DNA from: a virus
Direction: 5' to 3' (one strand)
DNA length: 24,295 bases
IMG/VR virus record: IMGVR_UViG_3300013126_000238
Span: 1-24,295 of that record
Of the stretch, positions 234-3,231 are shown in pieces. Numbering within the stretch: position 1 is the stretch's first letter; every line of letters begins with the position of its first letter. The notes beneath the pieces are model-generated. The model made no database searches. It was not told the DNA's origin and saw only the letters and a program-made list of their open reading frames with translations. Made by a program: the position numbers and the translations under genes.

Positions 234-992
234 ATGATATCTTTAAAAAAATTATTAACCGAAGGAACACTAAACGAAGATATCAAAAGAGATATTGATA
301 AGTTTATTGATAAGTTAAACAAACAATTTCCAGACCAAGAATATACTATATCTTCTGGTGGTGGTAAGTATGCAAGAATTACTCACAAAAATAGAAAAGG
401 TGGACAGGAATCTGCTTGGGGATTTATTGCATTAGTTGATAACCCATCTAAAGGTTTTCAAAAAGGAGACCTATTAAAAGCAGCAGGATATAATACACCT
501 GCTAAAACTGCTAGAGGTAATATTCTAAATGGTACTGCAAAATACGATAAGTATTCACCTAAATATTTGAGAGAGGAATTGGTAAATGAAGAAAAGAAAT
601 ACAAAAAAGGTGATAAACTTAAAATCAAATTAAAAAACGGAAAAAAGATTGATGTAGTATTTGATATGTATTCACGTACAAAGGGAGTAGCATTGGGTAA
701 GTTTAAGGATGGAAGTGGAGGATATGATATTAAACCATTTAGTTTAGATACTGTTGTAGAATCAGTAAACGAAGGTAATTGGTCAAAGATTATGGCAGGT
801 GTTAAGAAAGGTTCTCAATCAGGACCTTGGACTATCGTAATAATCCGAAACAAAAAAGTAATACATCAGGAGCCTGTAAAGTATAGAGATGCAATTCCAG
901 CACACTACGAAGATGTAAAGAAGCAATTCAGAAATGGATTTTTAGCAATCGAAGATAATTCAGGTAAAATTGTATATCAAGAAAGAATCTAA
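234..992 (+). CDS. putative internal head protein with capsid-targeting leader, three modules
   Basis: This 252-aa protein is lysine-rich and basic. Its N-terminus MISLKKLLTE-G resembles the capsid-targeting leaders of T4 internal proteins, which gp21 cuts after (L/I)-x-E; that match puts a likely cut after Glu10. Two more sites of this type are visible, LVNE (Glu119) and SVNE (Glu180, followed by Gly). They would divide the mature protein into about 11-119, 120-180 and 181-252. The middle part (KKGDKLKIKLKNGKKIDVVF) looks like a small SH3-like or KOW-like barrel. The last part (WTIVIIRNKKVI to IVYQERI) is a compact alpha/beta segment. It starts one base after the previous stop and overlaps the next gene by one base (TAATG). 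Head localisation is inferred from the leader; no enzymatic function is recognised. Confidence 0.72.
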   Translation: MISLKKLLTEGTLNEDIKRDIDKFIDKLNKQFPDQEYTISSGGGKYARITHKNRKGGQESAWGFIALVDNPSKGFQKGDLLKAAGYNTPAKTARGNILNGTAKYDKYSPKYLREELVNEEKKYKKGDKLKIKLKNGKKIDVVFDMYSRTKGVALGKFKDGSGGYDIKPFSLDTVVESVNEGNWSKIMAGVKKGSQSGPWTIVIIRNKKVIHQEPVKYRDAIPAHYEDVKKQFRNGFLAIEDNSGKIVYQERI

Positions 993-1828
993 TGATACTA
1001 TTAAGAGATATAATGGCCGAAGACCTTCGTAAGTGGTTTGGTAAAGGTAAGACTGGTTCTACTACTGGTGGTGGTTGGGATAGATATAACTCTAAAGGTG
1101 AGAAGGTAGGTAAGTGTGGTGATGGTAAAGCAGGTGATTCATATGCAGCTTGTTTATCAAAAGAAAAAGCAGCTAAGTTAGGACCTGATGGTAGAGCAGC
1201 ATTTGTAAAAAGAAAAAGAGCAGCACAATCTAAAGCAGGAGATGCTAAGAAAGGTGGTGAACAAAAGAAAGGACAAAAACCTACATTTGTAAAGACAGGG
1301 GCTAGTGAGGGTATAAAAGAATCATCAAAAGAGGATATTATAAAAGATTTAGATAAAGTAAAAAATAATTTACTTAAAAAGGTAGACGTATTAGTTGCTA
1401 AGAAAAAGAAACTGTATTCGAATATAGATATAGAGACTCCTATGAGTTCCGATGAAAAGAAATTGGATAAAGATATTGCTGATTTGTTTTCTCAGATAAA
1501 TCAATTGGTTCTTCAAAAAAGAAGTTTAAAAGAAGATTGGTCACAAAAATATAAGAACTCAATTGATTGTAATAATCCAAAAGGATTTTCACAAAAAGCA
1601 CATTGTGCTGGTAAAAAGAAAAACGAAAATATGGCAAGTAAATTAACATTAGAACAAAAAATGGAATTATTCTTAGAAAAGAATTGTCCAACTGACCCAG
1701 CTAAATGGTCAGCATCAAAAGCAGCAGCAAAAAGAAAGTTTGATGTATATCCATCGGCTTATGCAAACGGCTGGGCTGCAAAAAATTACAAATCAAAAGG
1801 TGGTGGCTGGAAAACCTGTAAAGGATAA
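992..1828 (+). CDS. putative internal head polyprotein, DUF5872-like N-terminal module
   Basis: This 278-aa, very Lys/Gly-rich protein starts MILLRDIMAE-D, a capsid-targeting-like leader with a likely cut after Glu10. Residues 11-80 (KCGDGKAGDSYAACLSKEKA, then a basic helix FVKRKRAAQSKAG) resemble the DUF5872-type modules I recall from other phage proteins. Internal gp21-type sites GIKE (Glu110) and SLKE (Glu181) bracket a coiled-coil-like part, 111-181. After these come a Cys module (SIDCNNPKGFSQKAHC, 190-205) and a C-terminal module (KFDVYPSAYANGWAAKNY, about 249-266). Both look like short motifs recurrent in phage virion proteins. I infer a processed precursor giving several small basic peptides inside the head, possibly DNA-binding. 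The start is fixed by the TAATG overlap at 990-994, and the gene overlaps the next one the same way. Confidence 0.72.
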   Translation: MILLRDIMAEDLRKWFGKGKTGSTTGGGWDRYNSKGEKVGKCGDGKAGDSYAACLSKEKAAKLGPDGRAAFVKRKRAAQSKAGDAKKGGEQKKGQKPTFVKTGASEGIKESSKEDIIKDLDKVKNNLLKKVDVLVAKKKKLYSNIDIETPMSSDEKKLDKDIADLFSQINQLVLQKRSLKEDWSQKYKNSIDCNNPKGFSQKAHCAGKKKNENMASKLTLEQKMELFLEKNCPTDPAKWSASKAAAKRKFDVYPSAYANGWAAKNYKSKGGGWKTCKG

Positions 1829-2187
1829 TGATAAAACTTGTAGATATATTAAAAGAATTAAGTATCACTAACTATGTTGGTGAAATTGGTTATTTGTGGC
1901 CATTTGCCGATTCTGAAAATGAAGCTGAAGCTTGGGAAGAATCTAGATTACAAAGCCTATTTAAAGGTTCTTTAAAAGATTGGTCTCCACATCCAACACA
2001 TCCACACAATACTATATTACATCAACATGATATACATCAAACAAATCATTTTAAAGCAGGCCAAGCAAGTGATGAAAAAATAAAAATATCAAAAGGACAT
2101 AAAGTTGTAAAACATTTATATACGCCAAATGAAGTTGATATTTATTTAAACGTAGATTATCAGTTAGACCCTCTAAAAAAATATTAA
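1828..2187 (+). CDS. small protein with capsid-targeting-like leader, His-rich
   Basis: This 119-aa protein begins MIKLVDILKE-L, matching the leader of its neighbours; a gp21-type cut after Glu10 would leave a 109-aa product. The body is not recognised. It has an acidic stretch (ADSENEAEAWEESR) and then a histidine-rich stretch (HPTHPHNTILHQHDIHQTNH, about 52-71) that could bind metal. The C-terminal part, VVKHLYTPNEVDIYLNVDY, is beta-rich. The start codon shares a base with the previous stop (TAATG), so translational coupling is likely. Packaging in the head is an inference from the leader. A motif identical to the candidate late promoter lies inside this gene at 2138-2146. Confidence 0.65.
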   Translation: MIKLVDILKELSITNYVGEIGYLWPFADSENEAEAWEESRLQSLFKGSLKDWSPHPTHPHNTILHQHDIHQTNHFKAGQASDEKIKISKGHKVVKHLYTPNEVDIYLNVDYQLDPLKKY

Positions 2188-2188
2188 A

Positions 2189-2422
2189 ATGATAACCTTA
2201 AAATCGCTACTTAAAGAAGAAAAAGAGTTCATTATATGGGGTGTTCCTCCTGGCGAAAGAGATGAAGTTGTAGCATATACAAAAGCTAAGAGTATGCCTG
2301 AAGCTAAGAAGGTAATGGATATTCTTAAACAAAAGCATGGTTTGACAAAACTAAGAGTACAGGTTATAGACCTTTCACAAACATACGATTTAAAAAAAGC
2401 ATTTAGTAGTACTGTAAGATGA
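2189..2422 (+). CDS. small protein with capsid-targeting-like leader
   Basis: This 77-aa protein begins MITLKSLLKE-E, almost the same as MISLKKLLTE-G of the 234-992 gene. A cut after Glu10 would leave a 67-residue domain. The rest (FIIWGVPPGERDEVVAYTKAKS, then EAKKVMDILKQKHGLTKLRV and QVIDLS) reads as beta-alpha-beta, like a small ferredoxin-like or single alpha/beta domain. No family is recognised. It starts two bases after the previous stop, and its TGA overlaps the next ATG (ATGA at 2419-2422), so all five cargo-like genes form one coupled string. Confidence 0.65.
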   Translation: MITLKSLLKEEKEFIIWGVPPGERDEVVAYTKAKSMPEAKKVMDILKQKHGLTKLRVQVIDLSQTYDLKKAFSSTVR

Positions 2423-3231
2423 TAAACGAATGTATTATTGTATCAAAAGAAGTTGGTGATAAATTTATCCTTGCTAAAAATAGGGATAGAATGTATAATC
2501 CAGAACTTGAAATTGTACACACTATTATAGATGGTGTTGAAGTTGCATATCTACATGATTTAATTACCGATTGGAGTGAAGGATTAAATGAGCATGGTAT
2601 TGGTGTAGTGAATTCAGCATTGCTTGTTGGACATGATGAAGCAGAAGCTAAGATAGTAAAGAAAGGTGGTAAGCCGGGTCCTGATGGTAATAAGATGAGA
2701 AACATTATAAAGCAACCTACACTAATGAAAGCGGTTAGAGCTGCAATATCTTATAAAGGTAGTAGTGGTTTATCTCTTAAAGGTCACACTTTCGTATCAT
2801 CGCCAAAACATTTAATTAGTATTGAAACTACATCAAAACATAAACCTGATGTAAAACTACAAAACTCCGAATCACCAGTTGTTCGTACAAATCATGGGCA
2901 TATGTTCACCGATGCCGGATACACACATGGTGAGAAATACCTATCATCAAAAATGAGAAAGATATCAGCTGAAAAATCAGTTGATAGAGTTGAAGATTGG
3001 AAAGAGATAGCGGCAGCTATGAGAAAAGAGTTTTTCCCAAAAAGACCTCAATTAAATATGAAAAGAGATACATCTGAAATGTCAACATCATCTCAGACAG
3101 TTATGAATCTTACCGATAGAATATTACAAATTACTATTTTTAGAAATAAAATTAAAGAATTTAAAGGTATTACAAACAAACTACCTAAAGATTATCAACC
3201 AAAGATAAAAATTGAAGTGGTAGAAGAATAA
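2419..3231 (+). CDS. putative Ntn-hydrolase (C45/choloylglycine-hydrolase-like)
   Basis: This 270-aa protein carries the pattern of Ntn hydrolases of the C45 acyltransferase and choloylglycine-hydrolase clan. It has a near-N-terminal Cys (Cys5 in MINEC), an NRDR motif (21-24) about 17 residues later, EGLNEHGIGVVNSAL (54-68, like the usual GxNExGL element) and VVRTNHGHMF (154-163, with the TNH typical of C45-like proteins). Such enzymes use the free N-terminal Cys to cleave or transfer amide bonds. Here four residues precede Cys5 and must be removed. The bond Glu4-Cys5 lies in I-N-E, a gp21-type cleavage context. The start is well defined: ATGA overlap with the previous gene and an in-frame TAG at 2407-2409. 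The substrate is unknown. Other readings are a C59 or TANGO2-like protein, or an inactive relative. Confidence 0.6.
   Translation: MINECIIVSKEVGDKFILAKNRDRMYNPELEIVHTIIDGVEVAYLHDLITDWSEGLNEHGIGVVNSALLVGHDEAEAKIVKKGGKPGPDGNKMRNIIKQPTLMKAVRAAISYKGSSGLSLKGHTFVSSPKHLISIETTSKHKPDVKLQNSESPVVRTNHGHMFTDAGYTHGEKYLSSKMRKISAEKSVDRVEDWKEIAAAMRKEFFPKRPQLNMKRDTSEMSTSSQTVMNLTDRILQITIFRNKIKEFKGITNKLPKDYQPKIKIEVVEE

Follow-up and report, generated by a model that had tools for sequence, protein, structure and literature searches.

A predicted Ntn-type hydrolase of large T4-like phages carries a short leader ending in a prohead-protease motif directly before its nucleophile

Introduction

What exposes the nucleophile of a predicted Ntn-type hydrolase whose reading frame begins Met-Ile-Asn-Glu-Cys? 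This question is raised by a gene in the 24,295-nucleotide stretch of viral DNA analysed here (the window; IMG/VR record IMGVR_UViG_3300013126_000238, positions 1 to 24,295). The original prediction, made from the letters alone, placed an enzyme with a C45/choloylglycine-like pattern at the end of a string of cargo genes and proposed that the prohead protease could free its Cys5 during head maturation. We have followed this idea through the predicted fold, the relatives of the gene, their leaders, their neighbourhoods and the proteases of the phages that carry them.

Results

A Cys-branch Ntn hydrolase by fold and residues

The features of the gene are as follows.

2419..3231, + strand: gene of an Ntn-type cysteine hydrolase, 270 aa, C45/NAAA/choloylglycine-like (NCBIfam NF040521, AF2 model, Foldseek)
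2419..2430, + strand: leader MINE, which closes with the I-x-E motif of prohead proteases and whose removal is predicted (invariant P1 Glu; low pLDDT)
2431..2433, + strand: codon of Cys5, first residue of strand 1 and predicted to be the nucleophile at the mature N-terminus (invariance and model)
2479..2490, + strand: NRDR motif, residues 21-24, probable active site (invariant)
2587..2589, + strand: Asn57 of GLNE, probable active site (invariant)
2890..2892, + strand: Asn158 of TNH, probable active site (invariant)
3064..3066, + strand: Arg216 of LNMKRDT, probable active site (invariant)

The coordinates, strand and motifs given in the original prediction proved exact: the frame reads MINECIIVSKEVGDKFILAKNRDR...EGLNEHGIG...RTNHG..., with M-I-N-E-C5, N21-R22-D23-R24, E54-GLNEHGIG-62 and T157-N158-H159, and closes with a stop codon at 3229-3231. 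The ATG overlaps the stop codon of the preceding gene (ATGA) and, since the frame upstream of it is open for three non-start codons (YCK) only, ATG 2419 is the sole possible start. Cys5, whose conservation had been put forward as a check, is unchanged across 33 representatives of the family, as are N21-R22-D23-R24, N57, E58, TNH and R216. Asn57 presumably has an oxyanion role, by analogy with the choloylglycine hydrolases, and Asn158 and Arg216 are given probable active-site roles in line with the family.

The NCBIfam model C45_proenzyme (NF040521) matched residues 13-234 of the window protein (E 9e-6) with 25.3 bits, which does not reach its curated cut-off of 85 bits; 24/33 relatives matched it at E<=0.01, and Pfam AAT was matched weakly by 10/33. 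PHROGs gave no match for the hydrolase, and sequence searches of the PDB, with the protein and with a profile as query alike, returned noise only. A TANGO2/NRDE identity, prompted by the NRDE-like motif, was rejected (Pfam TANGO2 in 1/33 members, at E 0.058; 8sv7 at TM 0.41).

The AlphaFold model, built with 32 sequences in the alignment, has an Ntn-hydrolase fold (pLDDT 85.7, pTM 0.87), in which strand 1 comprises residues 5-12 and hence begins at Cys5, and residues 1-3 have a pLDDT <50. A Foldseek search with this model, again a check proposed at the outset, led to Ntn hydrolases: acyl-CoA:isopenicillin N acyltransferase (2x1c) was found with E 1.4e-9 and probability 1.00, and CV2077 (3gvz, TM 0.63), NAAA, choloylglycine hydrolases and penicillin V acylase were also among the best solved structures. 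Judged by its fold and residues, the protein is a Cys-branch Ntn hydrolase with a predicted enzymatic activity, in line with the C45/choloylglycine-like assignment. A viral protein of 944 aa in BFVD (A0A1B1IVH7) aligns with the entire fold of the hydrolase (TM 0.92, 39% identity), and a fused or polyprotein form therefore exists.

More than 400 stretches in IMG/VR are related to the hydrolase, and two cultured Chryseobacterium phages, MA9V-1 and MA9V-2, encode it at 43-44% identity. By its sequences this is a compact family of about 265 aa that belongs to large T4-like phages, several of the records being 130-290 kb long. No cellular relative emerged when bacterial and archaeal genomes were scanned twice, and so cellular genomes offer no clue to a host-side substrate.

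An invariant glutamate before the nucleophile

An I-N-E directly precedes Cys5 in the window protein, which the original prediction had taken for an I-x-E site, and every leader-bearing relative turned out to have [ILV]xE↓C (the arrow marks the position before the nucleophile). Of the 233 N-termini that are complete, 34 have the start Met immediately ahead of the nucleophile Cys, 192 the Glu of [IL]xE, 7 the Glu of VTE and none anything else, and the loci collected later followed this rule without exception. As many of these N-termini are near-identical, a tree of 53 mature sequences outweighs the raw count. On this tree, P1 changed 0 times, compared with 19 changes at P2, 13 at P3 (among I, L and V only) and 18 in the length of the leader, and the class switched between M↓C and xE↓C about four times. 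The 40 distinct leaders, 4-12 residues long from the nearest start codon with a mode of 7, all have Glu at P1 (40/40); ten residues occur among them at P2, and P3 is always L, I or V. Counting longer forms, [ILV]-x-E before the Cys is kept from the shortest leaders, with 4 residues, up to those with about 19. The codon for the P1 Glu drifts between GAG (65) and GAA (56), and hence the constraint at P1 acts at the protein level. A chance origin of MINE-C is ruled out by the tree together with the codon counts.

Methionine aminopeptidase favours small second residues and should expose the Cys in the M↓C forms, giving an ungated enzyme in a few lineages. Two ideas about these phages were refuted: that they are without the protease, since a prohead protease of the gp21 type (S77) is encoded in M↓C lineages as well, and that they are without tagged genes, which fails for G006. 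Because the M↓C lineages too have the S77 protease, gating of the enzyme is not essential.

The prohead proteases and their sites

In T4, gp21 cleaves after L/I-X-E, and the leaders removed from its virion substrates range from 7 residues, in Alt, to 65 (PMC9026906). The length seen in Alt is also the most frequent one in the set of 40 distinct hydrolase leaders. A Cys at P1′ is, to our knowledge, unusual for gp21-type sites. The protease itself was present in 10/10 of the related records >130 kb that were searched; Peptidase_S77 was found in 17/26 records in one search and in 4/15 in another, the misses being shorter fragments. The 24.3-kb window record is itself a fragment, within which the prohead protease was not seen and no head-shell genes were recognised, and which contains baseplate genes. 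In these related phages, the major capsid proteins have a short N-terminal segment ending in LxE with a variable x (KLME, SLLE, ILAE, ILNE).

The cultured phages allow the hydrolase site to be compared with other sites of the same genome. The protease polyprotein of MA9V-1 has 21 [ILVA]NE[SAG] sites (shuffle mean 0.6, maximum 4), and head-region genes of this phage begin MKTFTCFINE↓A and MKNFFSFINE↓A. The hydrolase has FLNE↓C at the end of its leader in MA9V-1 and FINE↓C in MA9V-2. Thus, in a distant phage in whose protease sites Asn is the preferred P2 residue, the hydrolase has Asn at P2 too, in agreement with the phage's own protease, the cleavage specificities of these proteases being those that we infer from sequence.

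Several other observations were made in these genomes. The prohead protease domain of MA9V-1 lies inside a polyprotein of 1347 aa (L377 28501-32544; MA9V-1 126501-130544), which has the look of a protease fused to a scaffold and divided into many pieces by its own cleavage. Another protein, of 889 aa and encoded a few genes upstream from the hydrolase, has 8 [ILVA]NE[SAG] sites (L378 1053-3722; MA9V-1 148053-150722), and the gene at 150903 begins MSNYINE↓A; each of the two resembles a protease substrate. For the MA9V hydrolase (L081 8956-9801; L082), translation from an in-frame ATG further upstream yields MLKTFTNMTSADNNAFINE↓C, like MKTFTCFINE of the same phage; the GenBank start is probably too late, and the leader (MLKTFTNM...FINE) is longer than MINE.

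Cargo string and gene neighbourhoods

Four genes stand directly upstream of the hydrolase gene in the window.

234..992, + strand: cargo-string gene, leader MISLKKLLTE (234-263; T4-layout leader)
992..1828, + strand: cargo-string gene, leader MILLRDIMAE (992-1021), with Met at P3 here and Leu/Ile in relatives (phrog_27331, 1.6e-7)
1828..2187, + strand: cargo-string gene, leader MIKLVDILKE (1828-1857; T4-layout leader)
2189..2422, + strand: cargo-string gene, leader MITLKSLLKE (2189-2218; T4-layout leader), stop overlapping the hydrolase start

The published capsid-targeting leader of T4 has 10 residues, of which hydrophobic positions 4 and 7 serve targeting, and position 8 and Glu 10 serve processing. 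In all four upstream genes, the leader is 10 residues long, has hydrophobic residues at 4, 7 and 8, and ends with Glu as its tenth residue. Hence, the cargo string of the original prediction stands as a probable one: 234-2422 holds four consecutive tagged genes with unrelated bodies, which we take from their sequences to be internal-protein cargo. Similar strings occur in other related phages, for instance with MIKLKSLLNE and variants of it (G007 139784-143151). At the related loci, by raw counts that ignore relatedness, the T4-layout tag was found in register in 66/529 non-redundant upstream ORFs, in 0-6 when the register was shifted, at an internal Met in 8/4988 (control) and in 0/79 around M↓C genes. 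MINE itself has the processing half of the T4 leader without the targeting half and does not have the 10-residue layout, and packaging may thus rely on the folded domain or on a partner.

The neighbourhoods differ from phage to phage. In L144 (266 kb), the hydrolase gene lies between those of the head maturation protease (phrog_207, 1.6e-52) and the major head protein (phrog_138, 5.8e-72), in L255 it adjoins terminase and portal, and in L118 tagged genes stand on either side of it, which indicates that the gene has moved among several settings with its site kept. Some leader-bearing hydrolase genes have neither a tagged gene nor a head gene among their neighbours.

Other genes near the hydrolases also drew attention. 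Gene runs with MKLSELRQLIREEVRRVI-like amphipathic leaders surround the hydrolase in L118 (4111-7680) and G018 (65398-72932), and the cargo tag may have an extended form in these leaders. A 938-aa protein (G012 45764-48580) with the N-terminus MKGLAKFLVETILGE and a VVVYSGRF nucleotidyltransferase-like stretch, which has relatives of 779-789 aa near hydrolases in other loci, is possibly a large tagged head enzyme. In the window, 22746-23153 matches PHROG 447 (labelled NAD synthetase, E 2e-32) and is similar to homing endonucleases as well; the label seems questionable.

Discussion

We propose that the cysteine Ntn amidase would be synthesised in an inactive form, with a short leader that ends in [I/L/V]-x-E covering its nucleophile, and that the gp21-type (S77) prohead protease would cut the Glu-Cys bond during head maturation and so free the alpha-amino group of the Cys, which an Ntn hydrolase requires. 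The mature enzyme would then be carried in the virion with the other tagged internal proteins, be delivered with the DNA and, once inside the next host, hydrolyse an amide bond there. Packaging and delivery are suggested by the fact that such a protease site is normally cut inside the prohead and by the adjacent cargo genes; the assignment of the cut to the S77 prohead protease is likewise something that we infer. Taken as a whole, from the unmasking of the nucleophile to the delivery of the enzyme, we regard this explanation as likely. That a viral maturation protease creates an Ntn active site by cutting just before the nucleophile, with the injected enzyme switched on only inside maturing heads, is in our view fairly probable; the restriction to assembling heads would follow because the proposed cut there is what frees the alpha-amino group. 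Most of the comparative predictions of the head-maturation idea were borne out (fold, Cys, leader rule, S77 protease in the large relatives, head or cargo neighbourhoods in many of these, and the MA9V site match), the cleavage being predicted from sequences and model. The model places the scissile Glu-Cys bond at the start of strand 1, where it may be hard to reach for an outside protease. As to the substrate, analogy hints, weakly, at an N-acyl amide, be it a host lipid-amide, an acylated amino acid or a signal.

The main rival is autoproteolysis, in which the enzyme would remove its own short leader and the conserved Glu and hydrophobic residue would aid self-cleavage. Isopenicillin-N acyltransferase, NAAA, acid ceramidase and PurF remove their leaders themselves, and PurF likewise shows the dichotomy between M↓C and leader-bearing forms, with Glu before Cys; the P1 Glu alone is thus not decisive. 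The nearest solved relatives found by Foldseek are autoproteolytic. However, self-cleavage predicts neither a P3 limited to I, L or V with a free P2, nor the exact gp21 motif, nor the head and cargo neighbourhoods, nor the agreement with MA9V's own INE/LNE sites, and we consider it unlikely here, even though Ntn hydrolases are described as self-activating (PMC9140057) and self-activation is usual for those that bear leaders (PMC9140057, PMC7056826).

Two further readings accept less of the proposed route. A protease-cut enzyme that acts as a head component in assembly, and not in the next host, would suit L144, where the genes on its two sides are those of the protease and the major capsid protein, but the window and many relatives place the hydrolase among tagged cargo genes, and the M↓C forms occur away from head genes, which makes such a role improbable. 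The leader might also stay in place; Cys5 would then be no N-terminal nucleophile, and the Ntn fold would be that of a protein without catalysis or with another kind of it. This last possibility seems very remote: the Cys and the other active-site residues are invariant, and the alternative form, with about four switches between the two forms on the tree, has the Cys at position 2 after Met.

If activation by the prohead protease is correct, an Ntn hydrolase would here owe its activation to a separate protease, and not to itself or to methionine aminopeptidase, and would bring a zymogen logic to phage-injected enzymes, among which an amide hydrolase would now take its place. Phages would thereby couple the onset of a potentially harmful activity to head maturation, the enzyme being inert when made and active once packaged for injection. 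The leader and the protease would provide a genetic handle for finding the substrate, and head cargo would be recognisable from sequence alone in these T4-like phages. In the open-access literature, we found no phage Ntn hydrolase in a capsid, in keeping with the original prediction, which knew of no such phage system, and no virion proteomics covering the hydrolase; the MA9V-1 paper reports SDS-PAGE, without mass spectrometry.

Comparison with known systems

The proteases of giant phages (phiKZ gp175, SPN3US gp245) also cut after the Glu of a three-residue motif and process ejection proteins. Their motif is, however, S/A-x-E or A-x-E, and the part of the published accounts available to us names no Ntn enzyme among their substrates. 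With choloylglycine hydrolase and penicillin V acylase, the phage enzyme shares the Ntn fold, its M↓C form being like the bile-salt hydrolases and its short leaders like those of penicillin V acylase, but structure-based identity is about 10-13%, and the phage family is compact and had no relatives in the scans of cellular genomes. C45/isopenicillin N acyltransferase and NAAA are alike in fold, Cys nucleophile and invariant NRD and TNH-like motifs, with a weak profile match whose score is below the NCBIfam cut-off; in contrast to their long alpha-chain, the phage leader is very short and ends in a viral protease motif.

As in the case of the internal proteins of T4 (IPI-III, Alt), the phage hydrolase has a short leader ending in L/I-x-E, a gp21-type protease in its large relatives and a probable place in the head cargo, and its neighbours in the window have the same 10-residue leader layout. 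Unlike them, the cargo here is a predicted Ntn amidase, its leader in the window has only 4 residues, and the predicted cut falls immediately ahead of the catalytic residue and would thereby create the active site.
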